Part shown: piece after piece, positions 2 through 32,008 of the stretch
Position numbering within the stretch: the first letter of the stretch is position 1
Layout of the letters: each line of letters begins with the position of its first letter
DNA from: Planctomycetia bacterium
Lineage (GTDB): Bacteria > Planctomycetota > UBA1135 > UBA2386
Direction of reading: 5' to 3'
Length of the DNA stretch: 40,511 nucleotides
Assembly (NCBI GenBank): GCA_005776365.1
Contig: SXPK01000169.1
Span: 1-40,511, forward strand
Notes under the pieces: model-generated
Database searches by the model: none
What the model saw: only the letters and a program-made list of their open reading frames with translations
What the model was told of the DNA's origin: nothing
Translations under genes and position numbers: made by a program

Positions 2-1117
<1,116 letters not shown>

Positions 1118-24910: not shown

Positions 24911-25134
24911 AAGCCCTCGCATGGAATGGAAAGATAAGTGAGTTCCAAGCGTGCTTCGAAGCTTTCAGCAGATCTACCTTAGCCGTGCCGCCTCCGTATT
25001 TTCCCTATGCCAGGATATGCGGCTTTCTTCCTTGGCTCTCAAGATTCGCTCTACAGGCCGACGAAGTTGCCCCGACCGGCCGCGACTCGCAAGGTCTTGC
25101 GGGCAACGGCGCAACGCTCCTCACGAAGCAGCCC

Positions 25135-25140
25135 AGGAGG
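25135..25140 (+). promoter_or_regulatory. Ribosome binding site of the chemoreceptor-like gene
   Basis: AGGAGG 5 nt before ATG 25146. It decides the start within a frame open from 24951. Confidence 0.85.
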
Positions 25141-25145
25141 CTCCC

Positions 25146-26447
25146 ATGCAGACATCCAATCGCAATACGACAATGAATGTTGGCCGCAGAATCACGCTCG
25201 TGGCCTGCGTTTTCACGCTGCCGATAGCCATCCTGTTTTCACAGGTCTGGTCGAGCATTACTGAGTTCGTCACTTTTGCACAGAAGGAGCACGCCGGCAA
25301 CGCCTACCAGCGCCCGCTAGAGCAGTCCCTCGCAGCCGTGCAGCAACTACGCCTCGCCCTGCTGGCCGGCAACGACGCTGGTGCCGCCCCGCGCCTGCAG
25401 GCGGCCATTGATTGCGGTAACGCAGCGATGGAATCCATCGCGCAAGCGGACGCCGACTTCGGGGAGCTCTTGCAGTTCACCCCTGAAGGGCTGCGGAAGC
25501 GCAATCGCGCTCACCTGCGCGTCCCCCTGTTGCGGAGTGAGTGGAGGAGCGCGGTAGCGGCCATCGAGGCCGGCTCGATTCAGGGGGCGCTCCCGCAACT
25601 CGAGCATCTGGTGGCGGACCTCAGAGGCTACATCACCCACGCCGGCGACACCTCCAACCTGATTCTCGACCCGGATCTCGACAGCTACTACTTGATGGAT
25701 GTCACGTTGCTGGCACTGCCGCAGACACAGGATCGTATCGGGGCAATCATGAGCTCGATCGAGGCGATACTGGCCCAAGGGAGTCCCTCGAGGGAAGCAC
25801 TCGCGTCGCTCGCGGTGCAAGCAGCGATGCTCGGTGAGGCTGACCTTGCGCGCGTGGTCGCCAGCACGCAGACCTGCATCAATGAGGACGCCAACTTCTA
25901 TGGTGCCCAGCAGTCCATGCAGGACGTGCTGCCCAGGGAACTGGCTGCCTACCAGCAAGCGACCACAGCTTTCCTCGAGTTGGCGCGCTGCGTCGCGGCT
26001 GGCGAAACCGTCGATGTCGCCACTGCGCGCTCGACGGGCAGCCAGGCCCTAGCCGCCAGCTTCAGCTTTTGGCACACCGCAGCAGTCGAACTCGACGTGC
26101 TCCTGTCGACCCGCATCGCGCACTACGAGTCGCGCCGGACGTGGATGGTGAGCCTGTCGGCATTGGCAGTGTTGGTGTCCTGCTTGCTGGGCTACGCAGT
26201 GAAGCGCAGCATCACCACGCCGCTGGCCAGGATCTCAGGCTCACTCGGCCCGGGTGCCACCTTGCTTTCCGAGTGCGCCACGCGCATCGCGGACGAGAAG
26301 GCAGCCGTGGAGGCAGTCGAGCGGCGGATCATCGTCAACGAGTTGGTCGCTCATGCCGACGACATGCGCAAGGCGGTTCTCGCCTTGTCCGTATTGGTAG
26401 GAACTGACCAGGAAGCCGAAACGCTGAGCGGTCGCACCAACGCCTAG
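25146..26447 (+). CDS. Chemoreceptor-like membrane sensor lacking the signalling hairpin
   Basis: 433 residues; start fixed by AGGAGG 5 nt upstream. Membrane helix 1 at about 15-35, a large extracytoplasmic helical sensor at about 40-330, membrane helix 2 at about 332-352. The sensor has the sequence LILDPDLDSYYLMDVTLLAL, familiar from methyl-accepting chemotaxis proteins with this input domain. After helix 2 a HAMP-like start is present (KRSITTPLARISGSL). Only about 65 residues follow, ending HADDMRKAVLALSVLVG, which resembles the far C-terminal end of chemoreceptors. The roughly 200-residue methylation and kinase-contact hairpin is absent. It therefore cannot activate CheA in the normal way. 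The 77-residue gene downstream starts directly after it and may be its partner. Confidence 0.8.
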   Translation: MQTSNRNTTMNVGRRITLVACVFTLPIAILFSQVWSSITEFVTFAQKEHAGNAYQRPLEQSLAAVQQLRLALLAGNDAGAAPRLQAAIDCGNAAMESIAQADADFGELLQFTPEGLRKRNRAHLRVPLLRSEWRSAVAAIEAGSIQGALPQLEHLVADLRGYITHAGDTSNLILDPDLDSYYLMDVTLLALPQTQDRIGAIMSSIEAILAQGSPSREALASLAVQAAMLGEADLARVVASTQTCINEDANFYGAQQSMQDVLPRELAAYQQATTAFLELARCVAAGETVDVATARSTGSQALAASFSFWHTAAVELDVLLSTRIAHYESRRTWMVSLSALAVLVSCLLGYAVKRSITTPLARISGSLGPGATLLSECATRIADEKAAVEAVERRIIVNELVAHADDMRKAVLALSVLVGTDQEAETLSGRTNA

Positions 26448-26457
26448 GAGCAACGCC

Positions 26458-26691
26458 ATGAGTCCTCTATTCAGCAAGCTGCTGCGGGTGGTCGCTGGTT
26501 TTCTCGGCGAAGACAAGGCCATGTCCGTCCTCGAACGCAACATCAAGGGCAACGGAGGCAATCTCTCTACCTTCGACAATTCGGAGATGAAGCGCCTGCT
26601 TCCGTACATTTTGGGCGCCTGCCGCCTCTACGTGGCGAACGATGCCAAGCGGGACGAATTGCGTCAGGAACTCTCCAAGATGATCGCGTGA
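26458..26691 (+). CDS. Small helical protein, unknown, coupled to the chemoreceptor-like gene
   Basis: 77 residues. GGAG (26447-26450) overlaps the preceding stop codon and lies 7 nt before the ATG, so this gene is read with the upstream sensor gene. The protein is predicted helical and basic at its start (FSKLLRVVAGFLGEDKAMSVLERN), with a central NGGNLSTFDNSEMKRLLPYILGACRLYV and a charged end (RDELRQELSKMIA). There is no signal peptide, so it is cytoplasmic. No family is recognised. Context suggests it works with the sensor, perhaps replacing the missing signalling part; that is inference. Confidence 0.75.
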   Translation: MSPLFSKLLRVVAGFLGEDKAMSVLERNIKGNGGNLSTFDNSEMKRLLPYILGACRLYVANDAKRDELRQELSKMIA

Positions 26692-27515: not shown

Positions 27516-29210
27516 CTACTTGTCGCTCACTCGCGGCACCTCTAGCAACTCGACCGTCAGAACATCCGGACTTGTGGCGTCGAGAGTCCTCTCAGTCACA
27601 CGCTCCCATCTGTACCCCGGCTTTTGTGAGTAGGCACGCACTGTAACCTTTGAGAAACCACAGGGGATGAACCCCTCGAACCCGGTCGTAACACTTGCCA
27701 CCAATCCGCCCACGCGCAGATTGTGCTCTGGGCACTCGAGCATCACCGAGCCAGCCCCTGCTTGATCCCCGGCGATTCGCATCCATCGCAGCGCGATCCC
27801 ACCACCAAGCACGATGTGTTTGTGTTCCCCTTCGACGATCTCCACCGACCCGTGCTTCGCCGCGAGCTGCGTGATGAGCCAATCGTGGGCAGTGAGCTTG
27901 TAAACTCCCACTGGCAGCACCTGCGGCTCTGTCAGGTCCAATGGCCGGAATGCGTGATACATCCGATCCTCCCGCAGACGGTCCCATGTCGCCCTGATCT
28001 CCTTGTCCGACAGGTGGTGTCGATCCTGCTCGCGAATGGTCGGCAGTTCCACGGCAACCGAGCCAAACGCTGTAGACGTGGGCATGTCGCTCAGCGGAAT
28101 CACCAACGGGCGCTCCAACTCCCGCACTGCGATCGGGGTGACCGGACCCCTCCAAGCAACGCGGCCGATCGCCTGCACCTCCGCAAGGTAATGCGCCCCT
28201 TCGTCTTGCCCGGTCAGGGTGCTAATGGTCCGCGCCGTCGGCAGGCGCTCAGGCGCAGTCTTGACGACTACCGCAGCAAATGCCCGAGGGAACCGATCCT
28301 CGATTCGTGCCTTGATCGCCTGGACCTGCTCCCACCCGTCCTTGTTGCTTGGAACTACGTACCACGAGTCTGTCGCTCGCATGACGACATCTTGAATCTT
28401 CAGCATTCCCTCTAGCTCGACGACGATCGCATACGGCAGCGATAGTCGGATGTCTCGCCGGGTACCGGGCACTTGGAGAACCAGCTTCTCTTCGGGCTGC
28501 ACCCCTCCTTCCGCTCCGACTCCCGGGAAAAAGTAATTTGAAGTCTTTGGCAACGCCCATTTTCCTTGGGCTTCATGCACATACACGTACTCTGGATGTC
28601 GGCAGTGAATGAAGTAGTTGCCAAAAGCCAATTCCTTGAACTGTGCGAGCCCTTCCGCACTGGTTATGACGCGTTGGACCGAAGTATGCTCCAGTTCCGC
28701 GAAGTTCAACCATGCCTTGGCCAATACCACTTCGGCGCCCTCAATCGGCCGCCCTTCTTCGTTGATGATTAGGACAGTTCCCTCGCCTGTTCGCTGGAGG
28801 ACGATTTCGGCTCGCTCAGAACTGGAGAGCGTGCCCTCCCATCGACTGTGACCAAGACAAGTGGCCGCTGCTCTGCATTGCTCACCAGAAATCGGCGCGG
28901 ATCCTGTGCCGTCGACAGCGCAAACGTATTCCGCAGCGCCGACCCTGACAATCGCCGCAGGCAGTGGAAGGCCTCTATCATCAGCAACTCTCCATGTTGC
29001 GGCGTGACTCGGCACCAGGGACCGGTTGGGCACATCTGCGCGGCCACCGACACTTGCTTCGGCCGGAGCGCTTGGAATCGAATCATGCGCTTGTCCAATC
29101 TGGACATGCGGATCGACGTTGCCCGTCAATGTGAGCAGAAGAACCCCGAGCATGCTGAGCACCACAATTGCCGCTGCCCAGGCCCTTGAATTGCGCGGCG
29201 CTACTGACAT
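27516..29210 (-). CDS. Membrane-anchored protein with CarboxypepD_reg-like domain and C-terminal domain shared with the 31.5-kb protein
   Basis: 564 residues from ATG 29210. A membrane helix at about 11-30 (WAAAIVVLSMLGVLLLTLTG) leaves the bulk outside the cytoplasm. Residues about 140-215 look like a carboxypeptidase-regulatory-like beta sandwich (TVLIINEEGRPIEGAEVVLA, then AEGLAQFKELAFGNYFIHC). The middle is not recognised. Residues about 469-560 form a domain also present in the small secreted protein at 31520-32008: RWMRIAGDQAGAGSVML, GGLVASVTTGFEGF, then a V-x-(V/I)-R strand. The start overlaps the end of the Cys-rich gene at 29201-29665 by 10 nt, so the two are co-translated. The local base composition looks lower in GC than the flanks, suggesting transfer. 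Function unknown. Confidence 0.8.
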   Translation of the reverse strand: MSVAPRNSRAWAAAIVVLSMLGVLLLTLTGNVDPHVQIGQAHDSIPSAPAEASVGGRADVPNRSLVPSHAATWRVADDRGLPLPAAIVRVGAAEYVCAVDGTGSAPISGEQCRAAATCLGHSRWEGTLSSSERAEIVLQRTGEGTVLIINEEGRPIEGAEVVLAKAWLNFAELEHTSVQRVITSAEGLAQFKELAFGNYFIHCRHPEYVYVHEAQGKWALPKTSNYFFPGVGAEGGVQPEEKLVLQVPGTRRDIRLSLPYAIVVELEGMLKIQDVVMRATDSWYVVPSNKDGWEQVQAIKARIEDRFPRAFAAVVVKTAPERLPTARTISTLTGQDEGAHYLAEVQAIGRVAWRGPVTPIAVRELERPLVIPLSDMPTSTAFGSVAVELPTIREQDRHHLSDKEIRATWDRLREDRMYHAFRPLDLTEPQVLPVGVYKLTAHDWLITQLAAKHGSVEIVEGEHKHIVLGGGIALRWMRIAGDQAGAGSVMLECPEHNLRVGGLVASVTTGFEGFIPCGFSKVTVRAYSQKPGYRWERVTERTLDATSPDVLTVELLEVPRVSDK

Positions 29211-29665
29211 GAGCACACCGGAGTCGGATCCTCTGATTCCGAAAGCAGGTGCAGGCTCAGACAAAAGAACGCTAGCGGGCAACTCGAAGTGCCGCAGACA
29301 ACGTAGGGGGGGCTTTGGTTGGGCACTCGAATCAGTGCATGGCACGACTCCGCCTGCCCGAACTGTGCTCCGCAGCCGCACCATGTCTCAACGCCCCCAT
29401 TGTACAACTGAGCATTGAGCTTGCAGGCAGGTTCGGTCGGAGCACACGGCAGTCCACTACACCCGAACACCGTCCATTGCCCAGTCGTCGGATTGAAGGC
29501 CACCAGCGTGGTGCATCCATAGAACTCTACACTTTGCCTCAAAGCACCGGAGGCCAACACACTGCAAGGATCAAGGTCGCACCCGATCGCAGACTCAGGG
29601 CCTCCACGTAACACACTCGCTGCCATCCCACAACCCAGCACTCCGATGACAACCAACCCGATCAT
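29201..29665 (-). CDS. Secreted Cys-rich protein, unknown
   Basis: 154 residues with 15 cysteines, several as C-x4-C or CxC pairs (GCDLDPC, GCSGLPC, WCGCG, CGTSSC, CSC). A short hydrophobic start (IGLVVIGVLGCG) acts as signal peptide or lipoprotein signal. GGAGG lies 4 nt before ATG 29665. Its end overlaps the start of the membrane-anchored 564-residue gene by 10 nt. The even spread of Cys suggests a disulphide-stabilised extracellular protein. I do not recognise the family, although Cys-rich secreted proteins with short GC-x4-C units occur in Planctomycetota. Its partner is probably the co-translated downstream protein. Confidence 0.75.
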   Translation of the reverse strand: MIGLVVIGVLGCGMAASVLRGGPESAIGCDLDPCSVLASGALRQSVEFYGCTTLVAFNPTTGQWTVFGCSGLPCAPTEPACKLNAQLYNGGVETWCGCGAQFGQAESCHALIRVPNQSPPYVVCGTSSCPLAFFCLSLHLLSESEDPTPVCSCQ

Positions 29666-29913
29666 GATGCCTCCATGTTCTGAGTAGCCACAGGACTGTC
29701 GCGACTCTCCGTCGAGCGTCCCCGCTTCGGTTCCTCATGTCAACTGCATGACGAGTGATCGACTTCTCGTATCACCACCACCTTGGCTTCCCCGTGCCGA
29801 ATCGATCACGAGCCGAAGCGCAGTCGCCCTAAGCACGACTTTGTCAGGTATCTACTGAGCATCGAGCCAATACAAATTTCTACGCGTGCTGCGGTTGCGG
29901 TACTCCGCCGTCC
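29666..29913. other. Intergenic region upstream of the Cys-rich gene
   Basis: About 250 nt, more AT-rich than the flanks. It holds the minus-strand GGAGG at 29670-29674. No gene is seen. Confidence 0.4.
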
Positions 29914-30125
29914 TTGCTGCGCATCGACGTCAACCGACTGAAGCGACTGACGAAGTTCATGGATGGGCTCGCAGGCTCGTTCGCCGCGGTGGACAGACTG
30001 GCAACGCGCTCCGATACGTGCGCGACCTGCTCAGCGATGCGAAGCAGAAGAACATGGAGGGGATGCTGCAACGGCTGCGCGACCCAGGTCAGTACCAATC
30101 ACTGCAGCACTTCATCACGCACTCA
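29914..30125 (+). pseudogene. Frameshifted N-terminal remnant of an IS701-like transposase
   Basis: Frame 1 reads RLKRLTKFMDGLAGSFAAVDRLA. After a shift near 30000-30012, another frame reads LRYVRDLLSDAKQKNMEGMLQRL and DPGQYQSLQHFITHS. Together these match the N-terminal end of IS701-family (DDE) transposases: a 'Y-x-x-GLL-x-x-x-x-RKN' helix then 'QSLQHFIT'. The DDE catalytic core that should follow is missing, so this is a dead fragment of about 70 residues. No terminal inverted repeats were identified. It lies at the edge of the lower-GC stretch. Confidence 0.65.
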
Positions 30126-30293
30126 TGCTGTTCGCACTCGGAGAACGCTTCGCATCACGAGCCGCCGACTTCATCCGCGATCCGCCCAAGTTGTAAGGGC
30201 AGAAACTCTTTCACAACTCGGACTCGTGACAAAATAGTGCTACGACCAGGCGGAGACCTTGGTGGGGTTTCGCGAACAGGACATCCGCAGCTA

Positions 30294-31034
30294 TCAGTTA
30301 GCAGTCCGCCTGAATGCATTCAGCCCGTCTCCATCGTGCAACACATGCTCCATTGCGCGGAGCGTCGGCGCACCCGCCAGCAGGTCCTTTAGGTAGACGT
30401 GCCGATGCATCGGAAACGCTGCACTCACTTCGTGCGCGTCGATGATGAGGTAGAGCAGTCCGCCCGGCCTGACTGCCTGGGCCAGTCGCTCTACGGTGAG
30501 GGCGGGATCGGGAACGTGCTCAATGACCGAGTCCGAGAACACGAGGTCCCAATGCCGACGGGCTGGCAGCACGAGCTCATGCGAAGGCGTATGCACGATT
30601 TCGATGTCGTCCTGGCCGCAGCGTGCGAAGTACCACTGAGCAAACTTTGCCGCGGGTCCGTTCACGTCGCAGTAGGTGACGCGCTTGCCTGCGTCGCGCA
30701 GCATCGAGCAGCAAAAACCGAGGCCGCCGCCGAACTCGAGCACTTCCGGGCCGGCGCCGACCATCCAGCGCCAATGCCCATACTGCTGATAGATCGCGCG
30801 CCGCCTCGCTTTGGTCTGGCTGCCATACAGCAGGTCGAACAGGTACTCGTCCTTCTGTTCGTAGTAGACCTTGGCCTTGTCGAGCCAGTTGTCGCCAGGA
30901 CACTCTTGCCAAGTGACTTGGTTGAAGTTGCCGAAGTTCTGCGCGCACTGAGCAACCAGCGCCTCGGGCAGGCCGGTGTATTCGGCGTAGAGCTTGAAGA
31001 CGTGTTCGTCGATGGGCGGACTGACGGCCGACAT
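30294..31034 (-). CDS. SAM-dependent methyltransferase (class I)
   Basis: 246 residues. Motif I for SAM is VLEFGGGLGFCCSML (about 97-111), followed by VTYCDVNGPAAKFAQWY, whose acidic Asp would bind the ribose. WDLVFSDSVIEHVPDP is motif IV-like, and LAQAVRPGGLLYLIIDAHE motif V-like. This is the Methyltransf_11/23 type. The N-terminal ~90 residues are an extra helical region rich in Trp and Tyr (NQVTWQECPGDNW), perhaps for substrate binding. The substrate is not readable; a sugar or lipid is common for such stand-alone enzymes. The gene is cytoplasmic, and neighbours give no pathway. Confidence 0.9.
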   Translation of the reverse strand: MSAVSPPIDEHVFKLYAEYTGLPEALVAQCAQNFGNFNQVTWQECPGDNWLDKAKVYYEQKDEYLFDLLYGSQTKARRRAIYQQYGHWRWMVGAGPEVLEFGGGLGFCCSMLRDAGKRVTYCDVNGPAAKFAQWYFARCGQDDIEIVHTPSHELVLPARRHWDLVFSDSVIEHVPDPALTVERLAQAVRPGGLLYLIIDAHEVSAAFPMHRHVYLKDLLAGAPTLRAMEHVLHDGDGLNAFRRTAN

Positions 31035-31519
31035 GCTTGCGATCCTCCGTGGCGAGCTATCGACGACCAGCCAACCGAACTGAAGGCTGCGGTCGCATTG
31101 GGCCTTCGACAGGCGAAACCTGACCTGCTCGCCGGCGACTCACCTCGCTGTCGGGCAAACCTCCTCGGACTGGTGCCCGAGTGCATCCGCGCATCGACGC
31201 TTGGGTATGGCTGGCCGCGGATCGCGGTGAAGATGACGAGGGCGAGCGACATTGCCCGATCGCATCGTTCGCGGCAATCAGAAGCTGCAGGAGAGGATCA
31301 AGGAACGCTCCGATGTTGGCCGCCCGCTGCGGGTCCAGGTGAGTGCACCCGTTGGCAAGGACGATGGGGAGAAGCGCGCGGGGTGATCGATTCAGACACG
31401 AACGCTTGCGGCTCTCCACCCCACGACGATGCGGTCGTGCTTCATCGCGCTGTTATCTCGTCACGACAGAGTCGGCTTCGGAGCAAGCTCTCAGCCGACA
31501 ACGTGGTGCCCTCTCACTG
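31035..31519. other. Intergenic region, possibly a decayed gene
   Basis: About 485 nt. On the minus strand one frame reads LDPQRAANIGAFLDPLLQLL and the next SLALVIFTAIRGQPYPSVDAR, which hints at a broken coding region. No family is recognised and no intact gene is supported. Confidence 0.3.
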
Positions 31520-32008
31520 CTACTTGGCTGAGGGGTCGGCTTTGCCCTTCGACAGATCCATGACAATGTTGACGACGGAAGCGGTCGACTCGTCGATCTC
31601 CAACTCCATGCCGCCGACGAAGAACACTCCTTGCGCATCTGGAGCAGTTCGAATGGACACGGTTGCACTGCCGAAGCGCACGAATCCCTCGAACCCGCCT
31701 GCCAGAGTGTTGACCAGTCCACCCAGCTTGGCGCCGCCATCTGCGTAATGCAGCAGAACCGAACCCAGGCCCTCTCGATCACCAGTGATGCGGATCCAAC
31801 GAAAGCCCACGCCTGGAAGACACTGAACCTTCTTGATGCACTCATACACCTCGTCCAGAGCAATCCTGGGCTCGCAACGAGTAGTGCCCGGGCCAGCGAC
31901 TTGGATCAAGCCGCCGAGACGAGAGCGGCAAGCAGCGGACTGCGATGGACCATGAAGGGCTGAAATGACGATGGCCATCATAGCGAAAGCCGAAAGCACG
32001 TGGGTCAT
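31520..32008 (-). CDS. Small secreted protein consisting mainly of the shared RW-RI-GD domain
   Basis: 162 residues from ATG 32008, fixed by GGAGG (32016-32020) 7 nt upstream; the longer frame to 32161 lacks support. Signal peptide at about 1-25 (LSAFAMMAIVISALHG). Three Cys in the spacer (about 27, 45, 57) and one at 63. Residues about 66-155 match the C-terminal domain of the 564-residue membrane protein at 27516-29210: RWIRITGDREGLGSVLL, LGGLVNTLAGGFEGF, V-S-I-R. It is probably extracellular. Two copies 3.5 kb apart, one on a membrane anchor and one free, suggest related roles, but no function is known. Confidence 0.8.
   Translation of the reverse strand: MTHVLSAFAMMAIVISALHGPSQSAACRSRLGGLIQVAGPGTTRCEPRIALDEVYECIKKVQCLPGVGFRWIRITGDREGLGSVLLHYADGGAKLGGLVNTLAGGFEGFVRFGSATVSIRTAPDAQGVFFVGGMELEIDESTASVVNIVMDLSKGKADPSAK

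Follow-up and report, generated by a model that had tools for sequence, protein, structure and literature searches.

The window (the whole stretch of DNA analysed, 40,511 nucleotides) carries the genes here called A, B and C. The features that the analysis concerns are as follows.

27516-29210, minus strand: gene A, encoding a single-pass anchored protein of 564 aa, start ATG at 29210
29124-29189, minus strand: transmembrane anchor of A, residues 8-29 (model helix; hydrophobic window 2.81)
28584-28769, minus strand: sandwich 2 of A, residues 148-209, CarboxypepD_reg-like (PF13620, E 3.2e-5, below cut-off)
27531-27806, minus strand: D5, the domain at residues 469-560 of A, placed by the A-B alignment, the A model and the D5 profile
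29201-29665, minus strand: gene C, first of the C-A pair, encoding a predicted exported Cys-rich protein of 154 aa with 15 Cys that ends ...PVCSCQ
29201-29210, minus strand: overlap of 10 nt between the stop region of C and the start of A, from the coordinates
29832-30124, plus strand: transposase relic between B with the methyltransferase gene and the C-A pair, sharing 84% identity across 294 bp with an element next to the A paralog on contig C224
31520-32008, minus strand: gene B, encoding a predicted exported protein of 162 aa with an orphan D5 copy, start ATG at 32008
31544-31813, minus strand: D5-like part of B, residues 66-155, placed by the A-B alignment and the D5 profile

A sequence-only reading of the window had described A and B as a tethered and a free exported protein that share a domain, with a mobile-element relic between their genes. 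Both open reading frames are present at these lengths, A being anchored and B having a signal peptide. The listed reading frame of A has an in-frame upstream extension of 58 aa. The relic is also present, and its relative next to the A paralog on C224 codes for a transposase of the DDE_5 type (E 5.8e-47); however, a methyltransferase gene and gene C, neither of which had been mentioned, likewise lie between A and B. The methyltransferase gene (30294-31034) has an end adjoining the relic, and its 3' end may be cut. Elsewhere in the window, a plus-strand reading frame of 498 aa (24951-26447) has two apparent transmembrane segments and no Pfam match, and is sensor-like by eye; it is immediately followed by one of 77 aa (26458-26691). 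The GC3 values of B, A and C are 0.65, 0.65 and 0.63, against 0.78-0.88 in the neighbouring genes. The assembly of the genome to which the window belongs is 65% complete and is in 283 contigs. Its taxon is probably Planctomycetota, judging by the genes it contains and by the match of a sigma gene in a relative to a Rhodopirellula/Verrucomicrobium-type model.

Protein A consists of a short cytoplasmic tail, one transmembrane helix and a row of about five beta-sandwiches. In its AlphaFold2 model, made with 10 sequences (mean pLDDT 78), the helix at residues 8-29 is followed by a disordered linker that extends as far as about residue 65 and then by the beta-domains. Members of the A family are 480-570 residues long and every one starts with a hydrophobic helix. 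The closest full-length relative is the C224 paralog in the same genome (31% identity, E 5e-72), with other close full-length relatives occurring within the same genus and family. PF13620 matches sandwich 2 in six of six family members (best E 2.1e-15), the A of the window scoring 24.6 bits, under the cut-off of 32.3. Foldseek comparison of the A model with the PDB finds rows of prealbumin/CnaB domains, namely 6fwv (E 3.5e-11), the ancillary pilin 4oq1, BcpA, SpaD and RrgB. Also matched are carboxypeptidases N and D, in their transthyretin-like domains, and, with a TM of 0.74 over 77 columns, the N-terminal extension of SusC. The C-terminus of A, VELLEVPRVSDK, has no LPxTG sorting signal, the anchor being at the N-terminus.

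The C-terminus of A aligns with B without gaps, 28 of 83 residues being identical (34%). BLASTP scores the match at 59.3 bits, with E 1e-14 for a pairwise search space, and phmmer at 42.8 bits. With B as the query against the whole genome, the A C-terminus is recovered at E 1.4e-11 and the A paralog on contig C224 at E 1.7e-6. The D5 profile scores B at E 1.1e-26, B itself being one row of that profile. By the statistics of these alignments the similarity is not due to chance, and the domain match reported earlier is real. The set of motifs by which it had been recognized (RW-RI-x-GD...GGLV...GFEGF) is common to A and B, but to those two only, being partly lost in the C224 paralog (REIHVRGD, TRLV and GFRGF).

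The absence of a known family for this domain was also borne out. Neither D5 alone nor B alone has a Pfam match, no NCBIfam model covers the shared domain, with nothing above the NCBIfam cut-offs, and D5 has no significant match to PDB sequences. CarbopepD_reg_2 gives a sub-threshold match (E 0.0027) to D5 in the G004 homolog. A search of 154 genomes with a D5 profile gave strong matches only at A C-termini, in B and in an orphan D5 on contig C164; the idea that D5 is a domain of many architectures was therefore dropped. The remaining matches have E values of 8e-4 or weaker. Where the profile matches on C80 (L137), there is no A-like protein.

In the model of the whole of A, the strands of D5 at 474-559 form an all-beta block with pLDDT 84-90. 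Its P-x-G turn (P516, G518) is kept nearly family-wide and is typical of CarboxypepD_reg/transthyretin-like domains. Comparison by hhalign gave D5 a probability of 1% against sandwich 2 and of 11% against sandwich 4, the best of them and not significant, whereas sandwiches 1-2 and 2-4 do match one another. Linking D5 to sandwiches 1-4 by this method was therefore rejected, and the whole-chain Foldseek matches of the A model do not isolate D5. On the evidence of the model, it is quite likely that D5 has a transthyretin/CarboxypepD_reg-like fold and is the last of about five sandwiches in A. A new fold is not supported by a model in which A is a row of transthyretin/prealbumin-like sandwiches, though D5 itself is not tied to CarboxypepD_reg by profile. 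The fold of D5 is thus probably one already known, and it is the sequence family that is undescribed.

The number of Cys is 12-15 in all 15 tabulated copies of C, each of which has a CxC at or next to its end. In an alignment of 14 rows, 11 Cys are invariant and no Trp is. There is no Pfam, NCBIfam or PDB-sequence match to C; its structural model is weak (pLDDT 64) and has no Foldseek match below E 0.5. The C of the window, itself a row of the C profile, matches that profile at E 5.6e-29, with 18 other copies. As judged from these searches, C is an undescribed family of exported Cys-rich proteins to which no relative or similar fold is known, the export being predicted from sequence.

A C-A pair is present beside each of the first five A relatives examined. 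With a profile of six C proteins, eleven copies were found in 6 of 34 family genomes, with an A gene after each. Searching with an A profile added distant A genes (G129, G011:C58, G004 and G008:C146), each with a Cys-rich reading frame in front. The 14-row C profile finds 19 copies in 11 of the 154 genomes of the class and, each locus having been inspected, an A-type gene lies behind all 19. Four C loci were reached through C alone, and the reading frames downstream of these match the A profile at E 3e-21 to 6e-10. Of 15 tabulated pairs, 10 have a C-to-A spacing between -10 and +14 nt, and the two genes overlap by 4 nt as ATGA at C224, G001:C409b, G002:C250 and G004:C24. The tree of C proteins agrees with that of A proteins (Mantel r 0.76 over 13 pairs, with 0 of 20,000 permutations as high), an agreement that partly reflects shared ancestry. 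Judged by gene neighbourhood, the conserved partner gene of A is C, not B.

Individual loci vary. At L118 (G025:C32, 3620-4358, minus strand) the A behind C appears to be broken or internally deleted, having the transmembrane segment and first sandwich in one frame and the D4/D5 end in another. A full-length A without a C gene in front occurs within the family at L103 (G016:C11, 6006-7598, plus strand). Outside the class, among 392 genomes of the phylum, there is one C homolog, in G373 (E 2.9e-7); at this locus (L138, G373:C6, about 342-725, minus strand), in another class, C is next to a convergent gene and an A gene is absent. A and C were not found in plasmids, nor C in phages. No account of the cassette appears in the titles and abstracts retrieved on planctomycetes or ECF factors in combination with MauE or with carboxypeptidase-like proteins.

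These neighbourhoods bear directly on the earlier suggestion that A and B form a tethered and free pair, in which A would act as the receptor for B, a soluble ligand or decoy, with contact through D5. The D5 sequences of the two are closely related, both genes are within 5 kb, and B has a signal peptide and a GC3 as low as that of A and C. The two genes are nevertheless separated by the methyltransferase gene and the transposase relic, B is absent from 100 relatives whereas A-C pairs recur, and orphan D5 fragments arise through recombination in tandem arrays, as described below. The pairing of A with B is not supported, because B is found only in this genome while C accompanies A, and it is considered improbable. 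Listing the neighbours, as had been advised, therefore gave no counterpart of B and revealed instead the neighbour of A that had been missed. A paired surface system is still plausible, in which the partner of A would be C.

Locus G001:C409 (L061) is a tandem C-A-C-A array. From the start of mature C to the end of A, it is 98.9% identical to G000:C164 (L062), which is in the same genome as the window, while the signal peptide and upstream sequences are unrelated. At C164 a lone D5 of 103 aa lies a few nucleotides behind the A gene, which shares 99% identity with the D5 in the second unit of C409. These identities indicate recent recombination at the signal-peptide/mature junction of C, and therefore suggest that cassettes recombine at this junction and can leave an orphan D5. 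B, as a D5 with its own signal peptide, fits the same pattern. It would be an orphan D5, probably derived through recombination in, or deletion of, an A-type gene and fused to its own signal peptide. Such a protein could compete with the D5 of A, or could be a drifting relic.

It is proposed that C and A are a two-gene cassette that forms a complex at the envelope or surface, A being the tether or scaffold and C the variable exposed part; this is judged to have an even chance of being correct. The two proteins would be translated from one message, often with overlapping stop and start codons. C would be exported by the Sec pathway and held by about six disulfides, and A would present an exported rod of about five transthyretin-like sandwiches from its single membrane anchor, D5 being the last. 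Binding of C to the A rod would then place C as the exposed module of the assembled complex.

The same features can be read as those of a competition cassette, in which C would be a toxin or bacteriocin-like effector, secreted and rich in disulfides, A would present C or protect the producer, and orphan D5 copies would be the displaced relics of older cassettes. Orphan tail domains recall the displaced tails in polymorphic toxin loci. The cassettes are patchy in distribution, fast-diverging, multi-copy and tandem, and the C409 and C164 blocks, nearly identical from the C junction with unrelated upstream sequence, point to recombination there. However, no PADLOC, Pfam or NCBIfam model of a toxin, defence or immunity function matches, neither an immunity-like gene nor a secretion signature or means of release was seen, and A, anchored in the membrane, faces the same side as C. 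This function is quite unlikely. A broader version, although unlikely, has somewhat more to commend it: that the C-A cassette is an unrecognised surface recognition or competition system, with A as the displayed rod and C as a recombining specificity module of 12 cysteines, the mature part of which is swapped between species at the signal-peptide junction, orphan D5 copies such as B being displaced or decoy parts.

Some C-A cassettes have further genes beside them. A sigma-70-like reading frame is directly upstream of C at G017:C199, G011:C20, G011:C58 and G025:C32. The first of these exceeds the cut-off for Sigma70_r2 (24.6 bits), most of the sigma matches being below the curated cut-offs. 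The reading frame upstream at G011:C372 is sigma-like by eye and was not counted, having no Pfam sigma match. Directly behind A, a gene for a small MauE-like membrane protein is present at G011:C58, G008:C146, G110:C108 and G049:C290. All four of these proteins contain a CGC(L/M)G motif; that at G049:C290 scores 29.3 bits with PF07291 (cut-off 27) and the other three 25.2, 22.2 and 19.6. These genomes contain 0-4 MauE matches each, and four adjacencies to A are therefore unlikely to be chance. Profiles of sigma and MauE built locally are circular, being made from the same sequences, and were excluded from the evidence; a seed of the sigma profile was, moreover, read in the wrong frame. Each type of gene is found at only about 4 of the 19 C-A loci, and the cassette in the window has neither as a neighbour, the transposase relic being upstream of its C.

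The sigma genes raise the possibility that a linked ECF-like sigma factor is controlled by A and C in response to a signal sensed at the envelope. In at least four cassettes the sigma-70-like reading frame immediately precedes C, which would agree with this, but most cassettes, including that of the window, have no sigma gene. Furthermore, A has no cytoplasmic anti-sigma domain, with about 7 residues before the helix at 8-29 and about 7-15 across the A family, a stretch too short to form an anti-sigma domain of class I. Signalling of this type is accordingly held to be improbable. Under the two-gene cassette proposed here, an upstream sigma-70-like factor would, where present, switch the cassette on.

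The MauE-like genes, in turn, could point to a redox or metal function, in which C carries a disulfide or metal and is matured by the MauE-like protein, with A as the anchor. The methylamine dehydrogenase light chain, with 12 Cys, depends on MauE. C has about 12 conserved Cys with CxC pairs, and a MauE-like neighbour at four loci. Against this, none of six C members scanned with Pfam matches the light-chain family, no Trp pair is invariant among 14 C sequences, and no gene for a catalytic heavy chain was seen beside the cassettes inspected. Such a function is improbable. As part of the C-A cassette, the MauE-like membrane protein would, where present, support disulfide formation in C.

An unexplained domain match is in this way replaced by a two-protein system that can be tested. 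Its cassettes are multi-copy, partly tandem and recombining, and C is tied to A in all 19 of the copies found in the class. If C is shown to bind A, the pair would open a first approach to a system of interaction at the cell surface among bacteria almost without cultured representatives.

The proposed system shares features with several known ones. Some cassettes recall ECF sigma/anti-sigma pairs in that a sigma-70-like reading frame is beside an anchored exported protein; they differ in the lack of a cytoplasmic anti-sigma domain in A. Like the methylamine dehydrogenase light chain (MauA) with its MauE, C is small, exported and has about 12 Cys, with a MauE-like gene near at four loci, but it lacks both the sequence match and the invariant Trp, no heavy chain accompanies it, and the mau cluster contains nothing that corresponds to A. 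With the CarboxypepD_reg/transthyretin-like families (PF13620, PF13715 and SpaA PF17802), D5 shares the P-x-G turn, although Pfam recognizes neither D5 nor B as a member and profile comparison does not align D5 to sandwich 2. A as a whole is closer to CarboxypepD_reg proteins, through the PF13620 match of sandwich 2 and the resemblance of its model to the N-terminal extension of SusC and to transthyretin-like carboxypeptidase domains. The best Foldseek matches are to the CnaB-type pilins and anchored adhesins (6fwv, BcpA, RrgB and SpaD), which have the same row of prealbumin-like sandwiches. From these A differs in having no LPxTG signal, a transmembrane anchor at its N-terminus and, beside it, a partner gene for a Cys-rich exported protein.
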